From a virus: a stretch of DNA of 44,168 nucleotides. Shown here in pieces: positions 29,037 through 40,135 of this stretch. Each line of letters starts with the position of its first letter. Positions within the stretch are counted from its first letter, which is position 1. A program made the translations under genes and the position numbers. The notes under the pieces are model-generated. The model worked only from the letters and a program-made list of their open reading frames with translations, did no database searches and was not told the DNA's origin. Where the stretch lies: the IMG/VR virus record IMGVR_UViG_3300043395_002808, positions 1 through 44,168 of that record, one strand, 5' to 3'.

Positions 29037-30440
29037 TTAGGCGGAGGGGAGGCCCTGCGCGGGGTTCACGCCGGCGTTCTTGATCACCCACATCTTAGAG
29101 GGGAGCATGACGGCGGGGGCGCCAAACATCATCAACAGGAAGGGGTAAGAGCTGTTAATCTGCGCGAGGGGGCGGCGGATTAGGCTCAACATCTGATAGT
29201 AAGCCATGTGATCCGCGCCGCTGTTGATGAGCAGGATAGGCGAGGCGCCGGGGAGGTCGGCGTTGTGGTCAACCACCACAGTAGTAGCGCCGCCGTTGGC
29301 CACCTCGCGGACGAGGAGCGCGCCGTTGGCGTTGGCCGCGTCGGGGGCGCTTCTGTAAATGCGGTAGTGGCTCACGGTCGCGCTAGAGTCGCTCTGGGCG
29401 ATAGTAAAGCTCACGCTCTCACCGGCGGCGACGCTCACGGCGGCGGTGTCCACGGCGACGCCCACACCGGCGGGGCCCACGGGCACCACGCGATAGCGAT
29501 AGGCGCCTTCATCGGCCGCCACAAACTGAGAGGCGGCGTTAGAGGCGGCGGCGGGCGCTACGCTGATCGTAGGCGTCACCACGGAGCCGTCAAACACACC
29601 CGACACACCGGCGGCGGGGGCAATGCGGTCGTGACGCTCAAGGAACGGGCACGCTACGACGGGGATCATACCGTAAGGGGCGCTAATGGTGATGCTGTTC
29701 GAGCCGAAGCCTAGCATACCGTTAGAGAAGTTAACTTGATCATGGCGCCCAAAGGTCACAGTCTGCTTAATGAGCTCGCTGAGCACGCGGGGCGTAACTA
29801 GGATATGGGAGGCCATACCATAGAAGGGCGCTGAGTAGAGGGCGCCTAGCACCTCCTGCAAGTAATCGGGGGTCACGGCCTTTCCGCGAAGGTCGGCCAC
29901 ATTGCCCGCGTCCTTGATCTGCTTAATGATACCGTCCCACGCGAGGGGGTTGACGGAGCTGTCGCCGTAGAAAAGCTCCTTCTCGACGCGGCGCAACAGC
30001 GCCTCCGTGCCGCGCGTCGTCTCAAGCGCGAGGGCGTCGGTTGAGGGCCCGCTGAGGCTCACGAATGAGGCAACATCGGTGATCTCACGGCGCTCCGCGA
30101 GATACTTAATCTGCACGGCGACCTTCTGATAGGTGGCGCGGTTGAGCGCGCCAATACCGCCCTCAGCGATAAACGGGGAGTGCTCAGCGCCGTGGCTCAG
30201 CACGCGGTTATACTCAACCACCGTGTTCATAGCGGCGACCTTGTTAAGCATAGGCCACAGCTTGAGATCGCTCATCGAGGAGGTCGCCACGCTCAGCGTT
30301 TGGCTCAACTGCTGAGGGATAAGGGGCGAGAGGTTGTTAGCGGTCTGAGAGCCGCCGGCGGGGACTAGGGGCGTCTGATAGCCCACGGTGCCCTTGTTGA
30401 GATCGGCCATAAGCGCGGCGAGGTTCTGAGAGGTGATCAT
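29037..30440 (-). CDS. Major capsid protein with inserted Ig/FN3-like domain
   Basis: 467 aa, HK97-type shell protein by position after protease and scaffold and by segments such as LKLWPMLNKVAAMNTVVEYN, RREITDVASFVSLSGPSTDA and GRHDQVNFSNGMLGFGSNSI. The C-terminal QMLSLIRRPLAQINSSYPFL resumes after an insertion at about residues 285-397 that looks like an Ig/FN3 sandwich (AYRYRVVPVGPAGVGVAVDT, SATVSHYRIYRSAP). Such insertions are displayed on capsid surfaces in other phages. The N-terminal residues 20-49 resemble the protease C-terminus. AAGGAG precedes the ATG. Confidence 0.85.
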   Translation of the reverse strand: MITSQNLAALMADLNKGTVGYQTPLVPAGGSQTANNLSPLIPQQLSQTLSVATSSMSDLKLWPMLNKVAAMNTVVEYNRVLSHGAEHSPFIAEGGIGALNRATYQKVAVQIKYLAERREITDVASFVSLSGPSTDALALETTRGTEALLRRVEKELFYGDSSVNPLAWDGIIKQIKDAGNVADLRGKAVTPDYLQEVLGALYSAPFYGMASHILVTPRVLSELIKQTVTFGRHDQVNFSNGMLGFGSNSITISAPYGMIPVVACPFLERHDRIAPAAGVSGVFDGSVVTPTISVAPAAASNAASQFVAADEGAYRYRVVPVGPAGVGVAVDTAAVSVAAGESVSFTIAQSDSSATVSHYRIYRSAPDAANANGALLVREVANGGATTVVVDHNADLPGASPILLINSGADHMAYYQMLSLIRRPLAQINSSYPFLLMMFGAPAVMLPSKMWVIKNAGVNPAQGLPSA

Positions 30441-30452
30441 CTGCGGGGCTCC

Positions 30453-31025
30453 TTAAAAAAAGCGGCTCTTGATGTCGAGGGGGTCGGCGCCGCTCTCTAG
30501 GAGGGCGGCGGCGTGCATAAGCTGAGCGGCGCGGTTAGCGTCGGTGGTGGTAGCGGTGGCGAGAGCCTTAATGAGCTCATCGCGCGCGTCAACGGCGGCG
30601 CCCTTCACCTCGCCGGGGGCGGGGATAAAGTCCACGCTCTTAGCGATAGGGGCGAGCTGTGCGGGGCGAGCGTCGCGGAGGCTCTTGAGGTCTGCCTTGA
30701 GCCCCTTGATGAGCTCTAGGGCGCCGGCGAGGCCCTTAGCAAGCGCGGCGTTCTGTGCGCGTTGCTCGGTCAACATGGCGTCAAGCGCGGGCGCGAGGCT
30801 CTCGGCTAGGCTGAGCTCTGCGCTCTCAACGGCCTTCTGCAAGCGCTCAGCCTGCGCGGCCTCTGCCTGCGCCTGCGCGTTAGCCACATCGGCGAGGGCC
30901 TCTAGGCTCTTGTTGAGCGTGTCGGCGGCGCGGTTGTCCGCTAGGGTGGCGTCGGCGCGGGCCTCAGCCTCAGCGGGGGCCACGCCCGCCGCCTTCATCA
31001 TCTCGATTAGATCGTCTCGGCGCAT
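30453..31025 (-). CDS. Capsid scaffolding protein
   Basis: 190 aa, almost wholly helical, rich in Ala, Glu, Leu and Lys with heptad patterns (EAAQAERLQKAVESAELSLA, KGLAGALELIKGLKADLKSL). The C-terminal helix ends DPLDIKSRFF, a likely capsid-binding tail. It overlaps the protease gene by 19 bases and precedes the capsid gene by 12, the classic protease-scaffold-capsid order. Confidence 0.8.
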   Translation of the reverse strand: MRRDDLIEMMKAAGVAPAEAEARADATLADNRAADTLNKSLEALADVANAQAQAEAAQAERLQKAVESAELSLAESLAPALDAMLTEQRAQNAALAKGLAGALELIKGLKADLKSLRDARPAQLAPIAKSVDFIPAPGEVKGAAVDARDELIKALATATTTDANRAAQLMHAAALLESGADPLDIKSRFF

Positions 31026-31735
31026 AGTCGCCTAGCCTCCATCATCTGTTGAGCCGCCTTTGTGATCTCGGCGAGGGGGGCGGCGGGGTAGTTGGCGTAA
31101 AGCGTCCTTATTGTATCAGCTAAAACGCTATCGTAAAAATCATTATTTTTTTGAGAGGGCCCCGCCGCGTTAGCTATTTGGGGGTTGAGCTGTTGTGGCA
31201 CTAGGGCGCTAAGGCTCTCGCCGTTAGCGGGGGCGCTTGGCGTTTGGTAGCCTATGAGGCTCTTGAGTAGCTCTAGCGTGGTGTCTGCGTTGATCGGGTT
31301 GTGTGTGATAGCGCAGTTAAGCACGCGCGCCTTGAGTATGCGCTTGGGGTTCTTAGGGTCGCGCTCGATCACCTGTCCCTCAATGCTAAAGCCTAAGCGC
31401 CGCCCGCCGCCCGCCTTCTGTAAGCTCCGCGCGGTGTCATAGACCTCTTTAGCCTTTGGGCGGTCGAGGAGTAGCACGCCCTCTAGGTGCGTCTCGCGCC
31501 CGCGCGTCTCGACGCTGAGCGGGTAGCCTAGCACATTTTCAACGCCGGGCTTGTGGTCGAGGTTAAGCCACCCTTTACGGAGGAAATAACTAAAATCTAG
31601 CCCGTTCTGCGCGATTGTCTCGCCCTGTAAGTCAACGCTCTCAGTAGAGATCACGCCCCTAATCAAAGCGGTTGGGCGCTCCTCATCGGGCGCGGCGTCG
31701 CTCTTAAAAATGTCTATCGAGCCTGTTAACTTCAT
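31007..31735 (-). CDS. Prohead maturation protease (HK97/XkdF-like serine protease)
   Basis: 242 aa. Conserved elements are the N-terminal RGVISTESVDLQGETI, His61 in NLDHKPG, Ser117 in RRLGFSIEG and His145 in CAITHNPIN, consistent with the serine/histidine prohead proteases (U35/XkdF type). It would cleave the scaffold and itself during head maturation. Beyond the domain the tail at 162-190 carries GYQTP ... LVPQQL, which resembles the capsid N-terminus. It overlaps the MuF-like gene and scaffold gene by a few bases. Confidence 0.85.
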   Translation of the reverse strand: MKLTGSIDIFKSDAAPDEERPTALIRGVISTESVDLQGETIAQNGLDFSYFLRKGWLNLDHKPGVENVLGYPLSVETRGRETHLEGVLLLDRPKAKEVYDTARSLQKAGGGRRLGFSIEGQVIERDPKNPKRILKARVLNCAITHNPINADTTLELLKSLIGYQTPSAPANGESLSALVPQQLNPQIANAAGPSQKNNDFYDSVLADTIRTLYANYPAAPLAEITKAAQQMMEARRLCAETI

Positions 31736-32781
31736 GGCGCCTCCTTGTCGGCGATTATGCGCCCGTCGCGCGTCACAGTCTGCCCCGGTCTTACGGTGAT
31801 TGTATCACACCTACATCTAGGGTGAGGCGGGTAAACAGTCGCGCGGTAGTCTGCGCGGCGCCGCCCCACATTCACGCCGTTTGATATGAGCTCGCCGGGG
31901 GTGAATAGGCGCGGGGTTTGGTCGGGGTTGAGAAATAGCGCCCGGCAAGTCTTACAGGCGCCCGTTTCGGGTATGCGTGCGATCTTGGCGCCCTCGCCGC
32001 CCGTGTAGAGCGCGTGGTAAAGCTGGCCCTCATTGTGCGCCGCCTGTAGCTCTGTCTCCGCGATGCGCTGAAAATCGCGCGCTAGGTCGCCCGTGCGTTG
32101 GCGTATGCGCCCCGCTACATCTGCGGCGGTGTCATGTGTCAATACGGCGGCGCCTACCTCCGCGCGGATCACCTCAAGCGCCGCCGCGCGCTTGGCGGGG
32201 TCGGGTGTGTTGAGTAGCTGTGGGCCATTCCATCGCTCATAAAAGCGCGCGCTCATCTCATCTGCAAAGTCCACCCCGAGCCCTCGAATATAGCCGCCCG
32301 CGTTGCGATACGCCTCTAGCAGTCCTGCGCGCTCGCTTTGGCTGATCCATTTGGGGATCGCTTGGGGCGGTGGTAGAGGGCCGGGGTTAGGCGGTACGGG
32401 TCGCTCTACCTTGAATAGAGGCGCTGTGGCGTCTATGCGCTGAGGTGCCGCTTCCTCGCGCGCGCTGATCGAGGGGCTTAGCCTATCTACCCATTCCCTT
32501 AGCGTGGCGTAGCGCATCTTAGCCCGCTCTGCCTCGCTCGCGTTAAAGTAGGGGGCGCCCGCGAGCCTTATAAATAGGATAGGGTCTAGGGGCTGATCTG
32601 CGCGCCGGCGGCCGTCTGCGTTGTAAATAGCGGCGGGGTCTAGGTGCCCCTGCTCGATGAGCTCCGCGATCCGCTCGTCTGTGAGCCCGCTAGCGCGAGG
32701 CCCTAAGAGCTCCACTATGAGCCCCTCATATCGCGCCTGTATGAGCTCACGCGCCCTCAGCTCAGCCTCTACTAGCCTCAT
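31732..32781 (-). CDS. MuF/SPP1 gp7-like minor head protein
   Basis: 349 aa. The C-terminal domain is the MuF-like module: ETELQAAHNEGQLYHALYTG, the CxxC in GACKTCRALFLN, then TPGELISNGVNVGRRRADYR, and the ending PPHPRCRCDTITV. Such proteins bind near the portal and may be ejected with DNA. The N-terminal half is helical (AELRARELIQARYEGLIVEL). It is coupled with the 90-aa gene upstream and the protease downstream. Confidence 0.85.
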   Translation of the reverse strand: MRLVEAELRARELIQARYEGLIVELLGPRASGLTDERIAELIEQGHLDPAAIYNADGRRRADQPLDPILFIRLAGAPYFNASEAERAKMRYATLREWVDRLSPSISAREEAAPQRIDATAPLFKVERPVPPNPGPLPPPQAIPKWISQSERAGLLEAYRNAGGYIRGLGVDFADEMSARFYERWNGPQLLNTPDPAKRAAALEVIRAEVGAAVLTHDTAADVAGRIRQRTGDLARDFQRIAETELQAAHNEGQLYHALYTGGEGAKIARIPETGACKTCRALFLNPDQTPRLFTPGELISNGVNVGRRRADYRATVYPPHPRCRCDTITVRPGQTVTRDGRIIADKEAP

Positions 32782-33050
32782 TTTCTAAACACCCTCAAAA
32801 CAGCCTTAGCGAGCGCGTCGCCTGTGGCGGGCTCAATCGCCGTGTGCTTGAAGCCTGTCTTAGTAAGCCATGCTCTAAACTGCTCGACGGTGTAGCGGGT
32901 GCGGTCGGCCCTTAGCGCCTGTATCTCTGCGCGTCCGTCGGCGGTGATGCCGTAAATAGCGCTGATACCGGGCGCGATCTCGCCGCGTCTAAAGCTCTTA
33001 TAGCCTGCGGGGTCTGCTTGCCTTGCGGCGTGTTCGTTGGGGTATGGCAC
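32778..33050 (-). CDS. Small phage protein with PYPNEHAAR domain
   Basis: 90 aa. The beginning, MPYPNEHAARQADPAGYKSF, followed by a basic RRGEI segment, matches to my recollection a short domain often seen in phage head proteins, sometimes fused to proteases or polyvalent proteins. The middle GISAIYGITADGRAEIQALR is beta and the end (AWLTKTGFKHTAIEPATG) mixed. Function unknown. It lies between the first module-bearing protein and the MuF-like gene. Confidence 0.65.
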   Translation of the reverse strand: MPYPNEHAARQADPAGYKSFRRGEIAPGISAIYGITADGRAEIQALRADRTRYTVEQFRAWLTKTGFKHTAIEPATGDALAKAVLRVFRK

Positions 33051-33053
33051 GGG

Positions 33054-35489
33054 CTAGCCCTCTGCATCGACTGAGCGATACGCCCCGCGCGCGTCGGCGG
33101 GGAGGTTGTGTCTTTCGGCGAGCTGAGCGCCTAGCTTGTCCGCCGCTTCGTTATAGTCTAGCGGAGGTGCGGCGAAAAAATCCTCTACTTCGGGGGCCTC
33201 TGTCATTGAGATAAACTCATCTATAGAGTCCTCTAGCGCGGTGGGCGTGGGGTTGAGCACAAATAGTTTTAAAAAGCTGTTAGCGAGGGGGTCGGCGCTC
33301 ACGCGGTTAATCATGCTCCGAATATCACGCGCCGCCGCGAGGCTCTCGCCGCGTTGCTCGCCAAAGTCAAATGTACTCTGACCGAATAACATCTCTCTAA
33401 TGTTCGCGTCGCGCTTCTCGGGGCTCTGCCGCGCTTTGATTATGTCTTTATTGAGCGCGTAGTTATAAACGGCGATAGCGTCGGCTAGGCTCTTGCGCGT
33501 CTGATCGCTGAGCCCCTGCGCGGCTAGCTTGCCTACGGCTACGGTGAGGTTTTCGTAGGTGCTAAAATCGAGGCTCGCTAGTAGCGCCTCGTCACGGAGG
33601 ATATAGCCTATTAGCGTTTGCATAATCAGCTCTCGCCCGTTGGCGTTTAGCGTGCCGTCGTCGCGGATATATTCAACGGCGTTTTGATCGGTGATGATCT
33701 TATCGCGCCTTAGCGCCGTTAAAAAGTCCGTGAGCGCGTTGCTCGGTTTGGTTAAAAAGCGGTTTATTGAGTAGTCCGGCGGGACGCGCGCGAGGGTCGC
33801 TTTAAGTGTTCTGAGCGTCTCTTGACTGAGCTGTGAGGCAAGCGCGCGCCCCTTTATGCGCCCCTCCATACCTTGCATCTTGGTAGCGTTCGCCGCGCGC
33901 ACTATCTGGGCTAGTGTGCGTGCGTCATCGGCGGGTGGGTCATATACGCGCACTAACATTGGCGCTTTAAGGGCGTCCACATCAGCGGGGCTAAAGCCAA
34001 AAGCGGCCGCCTCCTCGCGTAGCTTGTCTTTGTAGGCCTGCGCGTGGTCGGGGCGGTTAGCGTAAACTAGCTGGAGTGTCATAGTGCGGCTGTTCCCGCC
34101 TAACACTACACCCTCGGGGGTGATGATGGGTGCGCCGTTGGTGGCGTCGGGGTTGGTGTTGATCATAAAGTCGGGGTTAAAGCCGCTCACATTCCTCAAA
34201 ACCTTGAGCTGTTCGCCGCGCTCTTGATGATATGCGCGCTCCTGTATCCCTTCGGGGTAGTCTTGGCGCGGTGAGAAGCTGAGCGGGTCGTGTGAGGGGA
34301 TCGCGTCGCCCGCCTCGATGAGCACATAGCGCGCGCGCTGTCGCTCGCTCTTACCCGGTAGCCCCGGCAGGATAATATCCATCTCTCGCCCCTCGCGCTT
34401 TGGCTCTGTCTGTGAGCCTAAGAGCGCGATTACGCGCGGATCGAGGGCTAGGGCGGGGTTGCCCTTAACTAGCTCGCTCAACTGCTCTAGGAGGGCGTTA
34501 ACCTTCGCCGCGTCTTTGCGTGCGGGCTCGCGCTCCTCGCTCCTGTCAATGTCCTCATAGGTCGGCGTTGGTAGCTCGCCCGCGTTGGCCTGCGCGTAGT
34601 CGTCAAAAATAAACTCATACTGCCCGCTTAATAGCGTGAGGCTCCACGCGGTTTGATCTGCCCGCCGAGCCGCCGCCGGCCCCGGCGTGTAAACGGTCGC
34701 GCCGTTGGCGGTGATCGTCTCGCGTAGCCGCCCCTCTGCTAGCGCCTGCTCTAGCGCCTCCCTCATCTCATCGCTCGCGCGTCCCCTCGCCGTGCGGCGC
34801 CTTGAGCCGTCTATGTCCTGCTCGACCTTTGAGCCCTTAATGAGCTCCGCCGTGAGCGTGTCCACGCGCGGCGCACCTGTAAACACTTGATCTTGATCAC
34901 GGCGCTCATAGAGGGCCGCCGCCTTTACCGTGTCGCCCTCTGCTAGCGCTCTGCTGAGGTCTGCGCGGAGGGCTGAGCGGGCGCCCGCGCCTAGCGCCTT
35001 GTCGGTTGCGCTGTAGTCGCCGCCCTCGCTCTCCGGCATCGTCTCAAAGTTATTCGGGCGCTCGCGCTTGGGTGCAGGTGCTGAGGGCGCTGAGGGGGCG
35101 GGCTCGTCCTCGATCCCCGCCGCGCGCTTAGCCTCTCTTAGCTTCTCCGCCGCGCGCTGTGCCTGCTTCTCTGCCTGCTTCACTTGGCGCTCAAGCGCGG
35201 GCGCGTGGTGGGCGCGTAGTAGCGCCGCGAGCTCGTCGCGTGTCATCTCTACACTAGCGCCGCTCTCGTCGTGTTCAACGGTCAAGCGCTCACCGTCTAG
35301 CGCCTTGATGTGAAAATGTCCCTCCTGCCCGTTGTGCGTGAGCCTAAAGGCCGCCCCCGCCTTCATGTGCTCCTTTAGCGCCACGCCCCCGCCGTGTTGC
35401 TCTCTGTAAAAGTAGGTGTAGCCCCCGCCCGCCTTCGGTACTCGCTTGATATATTTGTGCTGTCTCGCTTTGATCAAGTCGCTGAACAT
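33054..35489 (-). CDS. Tag-module protein A: shared N-terminal module plus ddrB-ParB-like polyvalent domain
   Basis: 811 aa. Residues 1-91 are the shared module (MFSDLIKARQHKYIKRVPKA ... GHFHIKALDGERLTVEHDES ... EMTRDELAALL). A basic helix follows (AEKQAQRAAEKLREAKRAAG), then an unknown segment. At about 385-515 there is a ddrB-ParB-like domain (YVLIEAGDAIPSHDPLSF, YPEGIQERAYH, PDFMINTNPDATNGAPIITP, VVLGGNSRTMTLQL). A long helical C-terminal half follows. ddrB-ParB domains are known from the 'polyvalent proteins' that phages and conjugative elements send into the host with DNA. A virion-borne, injected protein acting on host or phage DNA is therefore likely. It follows the 102-aa gene by one base. 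Confidence 0.8.
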   Translation of the reverse strand: MFSDLIKARQHKYIKRVPKAGGGYTYFYREQHGGGVALKEHMKAGAAFRLTHNGQEGHFHIKALDGERLTVEHDESGASVEMTRDELAALLRAHHAPALERQVKQAEKQAQRAAEKLREAKRAAGIEDEPAPSAPSAPAPKRERPNNFETMPESEGGDYSATDKALGAGARSALRADLSRALAEGDTVKAAALYERRDQDQVFTGAPRVDTLTAELIKGSKVEQDIDGSRRRTARGRASDEMREALEQALAEGRLRETITANGATVYTPGPAAARRADQTAWSLTLLSGQYEFIFDDYAQANAGELPTPTYEDIDRSEEREPARKDAAKVNALLEQLSELVKGNPALALDPRVIALLGSQTEPKREGREMDIILPGLPGKSERQRARYVLIEAGDAIPSHDPLSFSPRQDYPEGIQERAYHQERGEQLKVLRNVSGFNPDFMINTNPDATNGAPIITPEGVVLGGNSRTMTLQLVYANRPDHAQAYKDKLREEAAAFGFSPADVDALKAPMLVRVYDPPADDARTLAQIVRAANATKMQGMEGRIKGRALASQLSQETLRTLKATLARVPPDYSINRFLTKPSNALTDFLTALRRDKIITDQNAVEYIRDDGTLNANGRELIMQTLIGYILRDEALLASLDFSTYENLTVAVGKLAAQGLSDQTRKSLADAIAVYNYALNKDIIKARQSPEKRDANIREMLFGQSTFDFGEQRGESLAAARDIRSMINRVSADPLANSFLKLFVLNPTPTALEDSIDEFISMTEAPEVEDFFAAPPLDYNEAADKLGAQLAERHNLPADARGAYRSVDAEG

Positions 35490-35493
35490 CTTA
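35217..35493 (-). repeat. Module copy A (direct repeat, coding)
   Basis: First 91 codons of protein A plus the preceding TAAG. Nearly identical at DNA level to 37221-37497 and 38704-38980; by eye, most of the roughly 275 bases match, with scattered third-position changes. The repeat includes the stop codon of the upstream gene (TAAGATG). Confidence 0.85.
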
Positions 35494-35799
35494 ATACACC
35501 GTCTCCGGGTCGTCGGTTGGGGTAAAGGGTGCTAGGTCAATCGGCGGGCTGATTGTGTATGTGAGCCCCGTGTAAAAAGCGCTCATGTACTGCGCGCTGT
35601 TCGTGTAGCTCATGCTGTTAGTGAGCTCTGCGGGCCCGATATAGTAGCCGGGGCGGTGCTCAAGCGTCTCCTTGTACGCCGCGATTAGTAGCGCGTCCCC
35701 CTCGTAGGTGGCGTGAGTATCCTCTAGGGGGCTATTCGTCCATGTGAGCATAATACGCGCGCGGCGCCCCATGTATCTAAGCTCTAGCGTGTGCTTCAT
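35491..35799 (-). CDS. Small beta-rich protein between two tag-module genes
   Basis: 102 aa, starting MKHTLELRYMGRRARIMLTW and ending in an acidic tail, TPTDDPETVY. Tyr/Thr-rich; no family recognised. Its ATG overlaps the end of gene B (ATGA), and its stop is fused to the start of gene A (TAAGATG). It lacks the module. It might be a chaperone, inhibitor or partner of the protease-bearing protein B or of protein A, but this is guesswork from position. Confidence 0.55.
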   Translation of the reverse strand: MKHTLELRYMGRRARIMLTWTNSPLEDTHATYEGDALLIAAYKETLEHRPGYYIGPAELTNSMSYTNSAQYMSAFYTGLTYTISPPIDLAPFTPTDDPETVY

Positions 35800-37493
35800 G
35801 GTTGCGTGTAGCCCTTCAATATAGCGTAGGTGAGTAGATAGTGATGCGGATCAGCGGCGGCGAATAATGCTATATCCCACGCTTGACGCTTCGCGTCTGT
35901 CGTCGTGAAAAAGTTTTCTACACCCATGCTTACCATTTCGCTCTGTCCGTCATCGTATAGTTTGCCTATGTAGTTGTCCGTGTATTGATCCTCAAAATAA
36001 AGCTCTTTCCCTTTGTACTGTTTATACGCCCCTTGATTGATGCGTGTAAGGTGGGTCAATGTTACAGCGCGCTCTATCCCCTCGTATGCCTGCCCGCGCC
36101 GCTCTAGCGTGTGGGCTAGTTCATGCGCGGCTACTTTATTGTTTGTTCTTGTCGTTAAATATATCGTGGCGCCTTTACATTGCTCGCGGAAACCCTTTTT
36201 AGGTCTTGAGATATGGATAAATGTTGTCTGATCGTCTTGTGCGCGTGCGGGGTATGCTCTGCCTAGTATGTCCTCAATGTGCGCGAGCTCTCCTACAAGA
36301 TCAAACTGTTTAACGCTTACTTCTGTTTTATAGGATTGTTGGTGCCTCGCGTGTAGCACATCGGCGGGGTATAGTGTTTTATATAGAAAATCGGCGTTGG
36401 CCGCGCTTACTTCCTTTAAGAGCGCGAGGCTTGCCGCGTTTATGTACTGTCTTATGTTTTCCTGCCGTTCTGCGTGTGTCACTTCGGGGTATAGTCGCTC
36501 TGCCTCGGCCCTCACGGGTATTTCTGCCTGTTTTAGCGCCGTGTCAGCCTCCCGGGCCTTTTGACGCGCTTGATCTACTCGCGTCTCATATTCCGCGATC
36601 CGTATATTGAGCTGTGCTCTATCCCCTCGTATGTCTGCGTACGACTCTCTATTATTCGCTTCTTTTAGCACCTTCCGATATGCGGCTTCTGCTTCGTCAA
36701 ATGCGCGCCTCTCGTTCTGCGTATGCTCTTGAATATACTTAAATCGCGCCTCGTCGGCTATAATAGGGTCGGGGTTTGCGGCTAATGCCTCTATCTTAGC
36801 CTGTTTGTAAACCTCAATAGCCGATAAAACGGCGGCGTTCTCCTGTGCCGCGCGCTCTAGCGCTTTGTTGTAGCTTTCGCAATATGCGGCGGTGTCGCCC
36901 GTCGTTAGCTCCTGTAATCTAGCCGTAAACATTACATCCGGGTTTGTGCTTGTGCGGCCTCTGCTCTTTGAAAAGCTGGCAAGCGCGGCGGCTACCTTCT
37001 CGGGGGTCACGCGCGCCTTTTCGAGCACCTCGCGCGCTAGCTTGTTCTCCGTGGCGGCGCTCTTAATGTCCTCTCCCACCTTCAAGCGCGCCTCCGCCTC
37101 TGCGGCTAGCCTCTCTGCGCGCTTGTTGCCTATGTAGTCGGGCGTCTCTCGCTTGAGCTTCTCTGCTCGCGCGCGCTTCTTGTCCGCGTCTGCCTGTAGC
37201 GCTTGGCGGTGCTGTCTCGTGAGAAGGGCCGCGAGCTCGTCGCGTGTCATCTCCACGCGGGCGCCGCTCTCGTCATGCTCAACGGTCAAGCGCTCACCGT
37301 CTAGCGCCTTGATGTGAAAATGGCCCTCCTGTCCGTTGTGCGTGAGCCTAAAGGCCGCCCCCTCCTTCATGTGCTCCTTTAGCGCCACGCCCCCGCCGTG
37401 TTGCTCCCTGTAAAAGTAGGTGTAGCCCCCGCCCGCCTTCGGTACTCGCTTAATATATTTATGCTGTCTCGCTTTGATCAAATCGCTGAACAT
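35796..37493 (-). CDS. Tag-module protein B: shared module, coiled coil and HELAH zinc metallopeptidase
   Basis: 565 aa. Residues 1-141 are the extended module shared with protein C (through ERLAAEAEARLKVGE). Residues about 150-350 are long charged helices. The C-terminal domain has the zincin helix HELAH (457-461, in NKVAAHELAHTLERRG) and a downstream SEMVSMGVENFF with Glu519 or Glu526 as possible third ligand. Metallopeptidase domains of this type occur in other phage head proteins. The body of this gene is visibly richer in A+T than its neighbours, while the module is not. Likely packaged in the head and ejected, cleaving a virion or host protein. Confidence 0.8.
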   Translation of the reverse strand: MFSDLIKARQHKYIKRVPKAGGGYTYFYREQHGGGVALKEHMKEGAAFRLTHNGQEGHFHIKALDGERLTVEHDESGARVEMTRDELAALLTRQHRQALQADADKKRARAEKLKRETPDYIGNKRAERLAAEAEARLKVGEDIKSAATENKLAREVLEKARVTPEKVAAALASFSKSRGRTSTNPDVMFTARLQELTTGDTAAYCESYNKALERAAQENAAVLSAIEVYKQAKIEALAANPDPIIADEARFKYIQEHTQNERRAFDEAEAAYRKVLKEANNRESYADIRGDRAQLNIRIAEYETRVDQARQKAREADTALKQAEIPVRAEAERLYPEVTHAERQENIRQYINAASLALLKEVSAANADFLYKTLYPADVLHARHQQSYKTEVSVKQFDLVGELAHIEDILGRAYPARAQDDQTTFIHISRPKKGFREQCKGATIYLTTRTNNKVAAHELAHTLERRGQAYEGIERAVTLTHLTRINQGAYKQYKGKELYFEDQYTDNYIGKLYDDGQSEMVSMGVENFFTTTDAKRQAWDIALFAAADPHHYLLTYAILKGYTQP

Positions 37494-37536
37494 CTTAACG
37501 CACCTCCCCGGCGCTCATGCGCTCGATTGTGTCTAG
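37071..37536 (-). repeat. Module copy B (extended direct repeat across a gene junction)
   Basis: Covers the first 141 codons of protein B, the preceding stop, and the final ~13 codons of protein C (LDTIERMSA plus variable residues). Matches 38554-39019 over its whole length. The duplicated unit spans the end of one gene and the beginning of the next. Confidence 0.8.
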
Positions 37537-38976
37537 TAGTGGTTTAAGTATTTCAAGGTCTTTTGTAATGAGCCACCGGGCGGTCTTGCGCTCCTCGTAT
37601 TGTCTTAAGGGTGTTCTAAAATGTGTGTCTCTCGTAAACTTCTGTTCTGAGCGTAAAACCTTAGTCCATGTTTTAAAGGAGTTGATCGCGCGTAGCGTGC
37701 GTGGGTCGATCTCTATCTTTCTAAGTATGGCGTTATCTAGTTCTGAGATCGTCACCGCGAGCTCATCTAATAGCTCTGCGTCTGCCTCTGTGGCTTCTGC
37801 GGGGCGGGGATGTTTGGGGTCATCGTAAATGTTCGCCATACTTAAAGCGCTCTTTACGCGGTTCGCCATAGACTGAGGTTTTTTTGTAAAATCTGCGTTT
37901 AACGCGGGGTGCATTTTATATTTTAGAGGTTTGATCTTTTGCTCTGTCCCCCGCGCCGCGCGCCGCTGATATTGAGCGGCTGAGGCGCCTGTTAGCGTGG
38001 GGGTTGATAGGTCGGGGTCTGTGCCTTCCGGGGTGTAGTCGGGCGGGGTTGTGTGGGCTGTAGCGGGTTTTTCTTTATCTTGTAATGTCTCGGCGACGGC
38101 TCTTTTAGCGTGCTCTTGTGCGTCTTTTAGGTGTCTAAACCTCTTCTCTTTGTCGGCGTAATACATATTTAAGAGCGGTAGCTTAACAGCGTACTCATAC
38201 ACCTCCCACGGTTGGTCTGTGCCGTCGCGCCCGTAGGCGTACTCAATCTCTCCCACTACAAAACCGTCAACTATGATCGCGTCGCTCTTGTTGTGGTGCG
38301 ATGTGGCGCCCGTCTTATATGTCACTAACTGAACAGCGGGCGCCTCTTTTGCTTTTTCTTTTTCGAGTATATCGACTACTTGATTAAGCCTTGTTAGCTC
38401 CGCTGTCTCTGCCTCTGTGGGCGGCGTCCCCTCTCGCGTGAGGTTCTCCATTATGCGCTTTTTTAGCTCGCTGAGTGCTTGGCGGGCTTGGTTGAGCGTG
38501 AAGGGTTGAGGTGTGGCGGGCTTCTGCGGGGGTGTGGGGTTGGCGGTGCGCTCCTCTCCCACTTTCAAGCGGGCCTCAGCCTCTGCGGCTAGCCTCTCGG
38601 CGCGCTTGTTGCCTATGTAGTCGGGCGTCTCTCGCTTGAGCTTCTCTACTCGCGCTCGCTTCTTGTCCGCGTCTGCCTGTAGCGCTTGGCGGTGTTGTCT
38701 AGTGAGAAGGGCGGCGAGCTCATCGCGTGTCATCTCTACACTAGCGCCGCTCTCGTCATGCTCAACGGTCAAGCGCTCCCCGTCTAGCGCCTTGATATGA
38801 AAATGTCCCTCCTGCCCGTTGTGCGTGAGCCTAAAGGCCGCCCCCGCCTTCATGTGCTCCTTTAGCGCCACGCCCCCGCCGTGTTGCTCTCTGTAAAAGT
38901 AGGTGTAGCCCCCGCCCGCCTTCGGTACTCGCTTGATATATTTGTGCTGTCTCGCCTTGATCAAGTCGCTGAACAT
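37495..38976 (-). CDS. Tag-module protein C: shared module plus unrecognised body
   Basis: 493 aa from the ATG at 38976, the position equivalent to the starts of A and B. An ATG 15 bases upstream overlaps the previous gene and is less likely. Residues 1-141 are the extended module. The body has a helix (QARQALSELKKRIMENLTRE), a mixed domain with QLVTYKTGATSHHNKSDAII and VVGEIEYAYGRDGTDQPWEV, a linker rich in Pro/Thr, and a C-terminal helical domain ending LLDTIERMSAGEVR. I recognise no catalytic motif. The body DNA is A+T-richer than average here. The C-terminal DTIERMSA repeats that of the 385-aa protein upstream. Confidence 0.7.
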   Translation of the reverse strand: MFSDLIKARQHKYIKRVPKAGGGYTYFYREQHGGGVALKEHMKAGAAFRLTHNGQEGHFHIKALDGERLTVEHDESGASVEMTRDELAALLTRQHRQALQADADKKRARVEKLKRETPDYIGNKRAERLAAEAEARLKVGEERTANPTPPQKPATPQPFTLNQARQALSELKKRIMENLTREGTPPTEAETAELTRLNQVVDILEKEKAKEAPAVQLVTYKTGATSHHNKSDAIIVDGFVVGEIEYAYGRDGTDQPWEVYEYAVKLPLLNMYYADKEKRFRHLKDAQEHAKRAVAETLQDKEKPATAHTTPPDYTPEGTDPDLSTPTLTGASAAQYQRRAARGTEQKIKPLKYKMHPALNADFTKKPQSMANRVKSALSMANIYDDPKHPRPAEATEADAELLDELAVTISELDNAILRKIEIDPRTLRAINSFKTWTKVLRSEQKFTRDTHFRTPLRQYEERKTARWLITKDLEILKPLLDTIERMSAGEVR

Positions 38977-39019
38977 CTTAACGCCCCTCATCTGCGCTCA
39001 TGCGCTCGATAGTGTCTAG
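38554..39019 (-). repeat. Module copy C (extended direct repeat across a gene junction)
   Basis: First 141 codons of protein C plus the last ~14 codons of the upstream 385-aa gene (LDTIERMSADEGR). Paired with 37071-37536. The region coding DTIERMSA and the stop-start junction GTTAAGATG are conserved, with short divergence just before the stop. Confidence 0.8.
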
Positions 39020-40135
39020 TGTGCGCTCCACCCACGCGCGCCCCGGATCGCCGCCCCATAAGAGCCACGCTATAGCGCCGGCGCTCGGCCCGCCGTCGGG
39101 GTGTGTGCCGCGTGCGTTCTTGGCGTGGCGGCTAAAAAAGCCCCTCATCATTTTAAGGGTGTCTAGGGTGAGCTCGTCGCGGTGTGAGAGGTTAACGGCG
39201 CGTTGCACCCCCGAGCCTATCCCCTGCTCCCCCGCCTCTTGTGTGCTGAGCCCGCCGCGCTTGTACTTGCGGCGGAGCTCTAGCCCTCTGCGCGCCGCGC
39301 GGGCTACCGATTCGGGGGGGCGTGTGAGCCCCGGAGGTAGTCCTGCCTTACTGATCGCGTCTGCGTCCGCCTCGCGCGCTAGGTCTGCGTCGGCTGTGGT
39401 GCGCGTCTTGCCGCCTGTTAAAAAGCTATATACGCGCGCGATAGCCCATTGCTCAGCGGTGGCGCCGGGGCGGTGCCCGCTTGTCGCCCACGCCTTGAGC
39501 CCTCGATCATATACCCGCCGCAGGATAGCGCGACGCACCCCGCCCACCTCCGCCGCCGCTCTTAAAAAGGCCTCCTTGCCGGGGCCCTTCTGCTCCTCGC
39601 GCACCTTTTCAGCTAGCGCCGTGCGTGTGTACTTTGAGGGGCGCGTGGGTGTCTCATCGCCGGGTAAGTCCTCATACAGCGCCCGCCCCGTGATCCCCTC
39701 GTCTTGTCGCCGCTCTATCACGCGCTCTCGCGCCGCGCGCGTCTCTGCGTCTAGCCCTGTGAAGTATTTAGCGGGGTGCTCTCGCCCGTCGCCGTCGGTG
39801 TCCACGCCCTTTTTAACGGGGGCGGGCGCCGCCTCTAAAAGCATATCGGCGAGCTCATCGGCGAGGCTCTCGGCGCGGCGCGTATAGCGGCGCGTCATGT
39901 CCTCAGCGAGCTCTCTTACTAGCTCCACCTCTCCCCCCCGCCCTCGCGCTTTGAGTATCTCAATAACGGGGATAACGGGCGCGTAGGGCTCCATCTCAAC
40001 GGCGCCCCGCACCTCACCCGCTGATATTCCGCGCACCCGCTTTGCTCGTTGTGCGAATAGCTGGCGGGCGACCTCCCACAAGGTTAAAGGGTCGCTGAGG
40101 GCGGCGCGCGGGCCGTTTATGTCTATGCTGTACAT
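38978..40135 (-). CDS. Phage head-associated protein with DUF5824-like and IAWLLWGG segments
   Basis: 385 aa. The middle (SKYTRTALAEKVREEQKGPG, then DRGLKAWATSGHRPGATAEQ and WAIARVYSFLTGG) resembles the DUF5824-type domain. Near the C-terminus, MMRGFFSRHAKNAR followed by GAIAWLLWGGDPGRAW matches a short segment frequent in phage head and protease-linked proteins. Upstream, HPAKYFTGLDAETRAARERV is another recurring phage motif. Function unknown; probably a virion protein. It ends in RTLDTIERMSADEGR, shared with protein C. Twelve bases separate it from the helicase gene. Confidence 0.65.
   Translation of the reverse strand: MYSIDINGPRAALSDPLTLWEVARQLFAQRAKRVRGISAGEVRGAVEMEPYAPVIPVIEILKARGRGGEVELVRELAEDMTRRYTRRAESLADELADMLLEAAPAPVKKGVDTDGDGREHPAKYFTGLDAETRAARERVIERRQDEGITGRALYEDLPGDETPTRPSKYTRTALAEKVREEQKGPGKEAFLRAAAEVGGVRRAILRRVYDRGLKAWATSGHRPGATAEQWAIARVYSFLTGGKTRTTADADLAREADADAISKAGLPPGLTRPPESVARAARRGLELRRKYKRGGLSTQEAGEQGIGSGVQRAVNLSHRDELTLDTLKMMRGFFSRHAKNARGTHPDGGPSAGAIAWLLWGGDPGRAWVERTLDTIERMSADEGR

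Follow-up and report, generated by a model that had tools for sequence, protein, structure and literature searches.

A shared N-terminal module on unrelated proteins of uncultured phages, a candidate address for loading effectors into the phage head

Why should three neighbouring genes of one phage encode proteins that begin with almost the same sequence and then diverge completely? The question is raised by the window analysed here, a virus record of 44,168 bases (IMG/VR record IMGVR_UViG_3300043395_002808) from a contractile-tailed phage with a tail sheath gene (PF04984) among its genes, in which three proteins, here called A, B and C, open with a common module of about 91 residues. We consider it moderately probable that this module serves as an N-terminal address for loading swappable polyvalent cargo into the head, an interpretation in which packaging, binding partner, cleavage and ejection are what we infer from the sequences.

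Over residues 1-91, A and C are identical and B differs by two changes, A44E and S79R; the likeness of B and C continues to about residue 141, and beyond the shared N-terminal part the bodies of the three proteins are unrelated. Comparison at both the protein and the DNA level confirms in this respect a preliminary description of the locus. Protein A (811 residues; 33054..35489, on the minus strand, as are the other features of the three genes given here) consists of the module (residues 1-91; 35217..35489), a linker with the octapeptide NNFETMPE (residues 146-153; 35031..35054) and a body in which residues 381-516 match the ddrB-ParB domain PF18763 (E 2.6e-16), as had been proposed; orthologues of A occur in L002, L003, L004, L012 and other retrieved sequences. 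Protein B (565 residues; 35796..37493; module copy at 37221..37493) continues with the linker shared with C into a zincin-like body, whose HELAH motif (residues 457-461; 36111..36125) is kept in L090. HELAH and a downstream Glu are conserved between these two sequences, PHROG matches to this body are weak (PHROG 20397 among them), and its AlphaFold2 model, built on the same two sequences, reaches a predicted local distance difference test (pLDDT) score of 34. Protein C is 498 residues long if translated from an upstream ATG (37495..38991), and spans 37495-38976 if translated from the ATG of the module itself (38704..38976); behind the module and shared linker it carries a body without recognised domain, for which no relatives were found in viral contigs. 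Neither the B nor the C body gave a significant match in Pfam or NCBIfam. The genes, previously described as consecutive, are not strictly adjacent, as an open reading frame (ORF) of 102 residues (35491..35799) lies between B and A.

Searches of viral contigs with module profiles yielded 33 loci, and 86 ORFs were then counted in the retrieved DNA, corresponding to 60 non-redundant module proteins on 37 contigs, all of them from uncultured phages in IMG/VR, with one to three module genes per phage. When bodies were clustered by single linkage and labelled with the module excluded, the 60 proteins fell into ten clusters; the ddrB body is present in 22 of the 60 proteins, and the other bodies include SNF2 helicases, the B body and large mosaic proteins. 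Polyvalent domains recognised on module proteins are PF18763 in A and L084 and an SNF2/helicase domain in L013. A homologue of MuF, protease, scaffold or head protein lies within 8 kilobases of the module in 31 of the 37 contigs, a count that covers only the DNA retrieved around each module and in which scaffold matches may duplicate the protease, since the scaffold profile also matches the latter through the fused protein of L004; scaffold identities were for this reason left out of the comparisons between phages. The module is mostly N-terminal on its unrelated cargo, with internal exceptions that are taken up below. As the same module is attached to ten or more sorts of protein that are unrelated to one another and is nearly always encoded beside head genes, it is probably an address label. 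Significant matches were found neither in Pfam (including the LPD models) nor in PHROGs, NCBIfam or the PDB, faint KOW/RimP-SH3 profile matches staying below significance; tblastn did not find the module in GenBank phages and plasmids, and a profile search of 84,980 prokaryote genomes gave no confirmed match. Three expectations of the preliminary description are borne out by these searches, namely that the module is not confined to one type of body, that it sits beside MuF, protease and scaffold genes, and that it is not a known catalytic or DNA-binding family.

Modules on unrelated bodies share on average 67.9% identity within a contig and 45.6% across contigs, which none of 2000 label shuffles reached in a permutation test that takes the contigs without correction for kinship; the single closest module is on the same contig in only 19 of 33 cases. 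The module goes with the phage, not with the body. In L034 and L052 a cargo piece of 188 residues is 88% identical, the modules are 30% identical, and protease and head protein are about 50% identical. Similarly, protein B and its counterpart in L090 share 74% identity at residues 151-232 and 58% at residues 396-565, with 23% in between (residues 233-395), and the modules of the two phages are 43% and their MuF proteins 40% identical. The 102-residue ORF behind B travels with the B body, as it is 74% identical to L090:5165-5473, which likewise directly follows a B-like gene. Homologous cargo of different phages thus bears different modules, and these comparisons indicate that cargo moves, with the address staying with the head. 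A further indication comes from four phages (28388_002866, 17951_000038, 25133_000666 with its near-twin 08050_000079, and 21958_000317) that encode an untagged SNF2 helicase of about 650 residues together with a paralogue of about 1200 residues, 35-40% identical to it, which starts with the module. Such a pair would be expected if one helicase worked in the producing cell and the other were delivered. In L013, the helicase that bears the module gave a match to the DarB-like phrog_10089.

The module itself comprises a short leader, a basic hairpin and a predicted barrel. Conservation covers all of its about 91 residues, the leader being less conserved than hairpin and barrel, and the key residues are retained across 45 sequences, most of which share 35-60% identity with the first of them. 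The earlier characterisation of the module as basic holds for the first 40 residues or so (8 K/R against 3 D/E) and not for the whole 91, which are near neutral. An AlphaFold2 model built on the 45 sequences (pLDDT 65) shows a hairpin together with a barrel of four strands and a helix, and the top Foldseek matches to it are Tudor/SH3-like barrels with E-values of 0.04 or weaker; such a model would fit a docking and a binding domain alike. The hairpin (KYIRRVP...YRYYY) is also seen without the barrel, usually after Phi-x-K-[AG], in the very large proteins L041, L068, L069, L074 and L085.

All 45 module sequences contain the pattern Phi-x-K-[AGS] near the N-terminal edge of the module; in A this is LIK|A at residues 5-8 (35466..35477, minus strand). 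The major head protein of the window has a single conserved copy at residues 14-17 (LNK|GTVGYQTP), which is found in 19 of 21 homologues, and the pattern occurs several times in both protease and scaffold: compared with shuffled sequences, 7 copies were found and 0.9 expected in the window scaffold, and 6 found and 0.8 expected in the protease. This enrichment is specific to K, versions with R, E or D not being enriched. The head protein of HK97 is cleaved at K103/S104 (PMC10275583). We predict that the prohead protease probably cuts at Phi-x-K|[AGS] and trims a short leader. Cleavage had previously been suggested after the module; the conserved candidate site is located instead at its N-terminal edge (LIKA), so that the module would remain on the cargo. 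As a separate observation, the N terminus of the head protein (residues 14-45) and the C-terminal region of the protease (residues 156-185) share the segment K-[GS]-..GYQTP...L(V/I)PQQL, which is also present in L004, L009, L011, L024 and others and is possibly a common protease site or a lattice-binding segment.

How did one phage come to have three copies? The module copies form the longest DNA repeats in the window, far above chance, with 93.7% identity over 473 base pairs (bp) between B and C, 96.8% over 277 bp between A and C, and 93.2% over about 295 bp between A and B. The B copy of the direct repeat unit (37069..37541, minus strand) comprises the tail of the preceding gene, the module and the linker, and its partner, the C copy, lies at 38552..39023 on the same strand. 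The repeat takes in some 13 codons from the end of the DUF5824 gene upstream; the tail of this gene, LDTIERMSADEGR, is found again where C ends (LDTIERMSAGEVR), and the final 13 codons of C are a copy of it. L003, a near-identical relative, has the DUF5824 gene, A, a 90-residue ORF and MuF as in the window but neither B nor C, which marks these two as extra cassettes. Together, the DUF5824 end inside the repeat and the layout of L003 suggest that B and C joined the phage as cassettes, each behind a copy of the module already present. In L005:7314-10144 the module is attached to a body of 299 residues, with the ddrB body encoded behind it in an ORF of its own, which starts with MGEALLKG and has neither module nor octapeptide.

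These arrangements might also be taken to mean that the repeated 5' ends are mere homology anchors for gene swaps and that the encoded module is functionless, a view to which the repeated end of the upstream gene, the apparent insertion of B and C relative to L003, and the further insertion behind the module in L005, which left a ddrB body untagged, would all lend themselves. However, the 10 codon differences between A and C are without exception synonymous, and both A and B, and B and C, differ by 13 synonymous changes and 2 replacements. As the differences are almost only silent, selection acts on the protein sequence, and this pattern already largely refutes a recombination by-product. Anchoring through DNA identity would, moreover, not keep the protein conserved between phages, with key residues retained at the identities given above. 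We regard this explanation as very improbable.

A second conserved element is the octapeptide. Near-invariant (D/N)NF(E/D)TMPE and close variants occur in 84 distinct contexts in the retrieved contigs, with one to five copies per protein, located in linkers of large proteins with and without the module (L019, L035, L048, L061, L079 and others); no mention of DNFETMPE was found in the literature searched. Its codons vary freely, with 41 distinct codings among 75 copies, indicating conservation at the protein level, and a role as a DNA recombination anchor was rejected for this reason. Likewise, a role as a prohead-protease site, suggested by the terminal M-P-E and by T4-type sites that end in E, is not favoured, as the octapeptide is absent from the head protein, protease and scaffold of the window. 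Homology blocks end near DNFETMPE in 113 cases compared with 46 expected, an excess that is in part a bias, because the motif itself aligns. DNFETMPE is possibly a docking motif or a signal at domain joints. The phrase PREQLTETA(R/Q) likewise recurs in linkers, ahead of several copies of DNFETMPE or close to them (L028, L033, L011, L024, L076). The octapeptide, as NNFETMPE, was also encountered in an 892-residue protein with a zincin-like HEYAH motif on L086, a short contig of an archaeal metagenome-assembled genome (MAG; Diapherotrites, MWBV01000042.1) that is possibly a misbinned virus.

Taking these observations together, the following scenario might be proposed. Late in infection, the phage would make several polyvalent effectors, each starting with the about 90-residue module of its own lineage: a short leader of hydrophobic character that ends with Phi-x-K-[A/G], followed by a basic beta-hairpin (HKYxxRxPxxGGGYxYYYxE) and a small SH3/Tudor-like barrel closed by a helix. 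The module would draw the protein into the prohead via a lineage-specific partner, which could be the scaffold, a head protein, the protease or the portal; the prohead protease would probably trim the leader at Phi-x-K|[AGS], and the cargo, with its module retained, would then be ejected along with the DNA. Since address and effector are separate units in this scheme, recombination could add new effector bodies behind a copy of the resident module, which would be the source of B and C, and homologous cargo elsewhere would be expected to carry the modules of those other phages. The idea of a head-cargo address, already put forward in the preliminary description, is strengthened by the ten bodies, the head genes in the neighbourhood, the lineage tracking and the helicase pairs, its packaging component standing as a prediction. 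More tentatively, and to our mind possible rather than probable, the module might be an undescribed, lineage-specific address domain of mainly uncultured phages that loads effectors and is retained after Phi-x-K|[AGS] trimming, with DNFETMPE as a second, general signal that marks the joints between cargo domains.

Several points weigh against the module being a head-loading address. Virion proteomics for these uncultured phages was not found in the sources searched, and the permutation test leaves room for an effect of kinship among contigs. The modules of the tagged helicases are less alike, with 36-59% identity to other modules of their own phage. Internal modules begin at residue 451 in L015, residue 231 in L023 and residue 1169 in L035, which a simple N-terminal signal fails to explain unless processing occurs there. 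The likeness to Tudor/SH3 barrels, predicted at moderate confidence, would equally suit binding of DNA or peptides. Finally, neither the module, sought in the N-terminal 110 residues, nor the octapeptide was found in DarB, DdrB, DarA, Hdf and Ulx of phage P1, and the link to that phage is thus one of analogy.

Some of these points would be accounted for if the module were a working DNA-, RNA- or peptide-binding domain whose site of action is the infected cell or the packaged DNA, shared because the effectors have a common target, with any packaging directed by another signal. The small barrel predicted for its second half, the faint KOW/RimP-SH3 matches, the basic first 40 residues, the internal copies and the recurrence of the hairpin alone in very large proteins are all in line with this. 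However, tracking of the phage lineage is more easily understood through a phage-specific partner than through a target, host or DNA, that the effectors have in common, none of the binding families gave a significant match, and the N-terminal position and the leader resembling the head-protein site are nearly constant; a working domain therefore appears unlikely to us. Somewhat less unlikely, though still doubtful, is a narrower version that overlaps the address hypothesis, according to which capsid targeting is confined to the leader of 7-20 residues ending in Phi-x-K-[AGS], in the manner of T4 internal proteins and P1 DarB, and the remainder of the module accompanies it as a domain that serves ejection or stability. 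The leader lies at the extreme N terminus, its closing site is shared with head protein and protease, and the signal of DarB has more than 9 residues and no more than 30. Against this, conservation extends over the full module and is stronger in hairpin and barrel than in the leader, and hundreds of residues precede some modules. We continue to favour a head-loading address that comprises the whole module.

The genes around A, B and C on the minus strand fit into a head-gene cluster. It includes the major head protein (29037..30440; phrog_752, E 8.1e-64), a probable scaffold (30453..31025), which is assigned by position and for which no convincing family match was found, the head maturation protease (31007..31735; phrog_1028, E 4.6e-46) and a MuF-like minor head protein (31732..32781; phrog_115, E 4.2e-10). 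Scaffold and protease, two overlapping ORFs in the window, are fused in a single ORF of 420 residues in L004 (11326-12588). The 90-residue ORF after A (32778..33050) is found in the same position in L002 and L003. Upstream, the DUF5824 gene (38978..40135; PF19141, E 6.3e-23) is a constant left neighbour of the module genes and is present near the module in 26 of the 37 contigs. At the other end of the window, positions 116-1651 had been considered as the portal, an identity that was dropped, as the sequence resembles a methyltransferase.

To our knowledge, how phages choose the proteins that they pack and inject is understood in detail for very few systems, such as T4, P1, N4 and phiKZ-like phages. 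If the address proposed here is real, the sequence of a phage would be enough to list its injected effectors, among them many in which no domain is known, and the module would provide a modular tag with which to study phage protein delivery and to follow cargo swaps between phages. One of its parallels is the capsid targeting sequence of T4 internal proteins and Alt, an N-terminal address on unrelated cargo. The T4 signal is short, about 10-20 residues, and is removed by the prohead protease gp21, which cuts after Glu; in contrast, the module described here is predicted to fold over about 90 residues, and the cut proposed for it would follow a Lys at the N-terminal edge.

The gene content is reminiscent of the Dar system of P1 (DarB, DdrB, DarA, Hdf, Ulx, DdrA), which likewise consists of polyvalent or anti-restriction proteins of a contractile-tailed phage, and P1 DdrB is the namesake of the ddrB-ParB domain in A; the P1 proteins are packaged in the head, those of the phages studied here being known from their genes. 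The P1 head contains DdrB, DarB and other Dar proteins, and the N-terminal 30 residues of DarB are enough to bring a reporter inside, with no consensus between the Dar proteins according to the authors (PMC9024508). Unlike in P1, where the proteins share no such element, here a single phage has several cargo proteins with a recognisable module of about 90 residues in common. Domains of the ddrB-ParB, SNF2, metallopeptidase and LPD types are known from polyvalent proteins (Iyer et al. 2017, PMC5512222), and, like A and other module proteins though not C, these are large multidomain effectors, with ddrB-ParB and SNF2 among their domains, encoded beside head genes; as far as the available part of that survey goes, a common loading address is not described there, and the module has no match to the LPD models of Pfam. 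MuF polymorphic toxins (PMC5576092) also combine a constant N-terminal trafficking part with a variable C-terminal effector, theirs being placed on phage head proteins, whereas here MuF is a separate neighbouring gene and the constant part a different, small module. Compared with these systems, what would be new is a recognisable address common to several cargo proteins, with signs of cargo exchange behind it.

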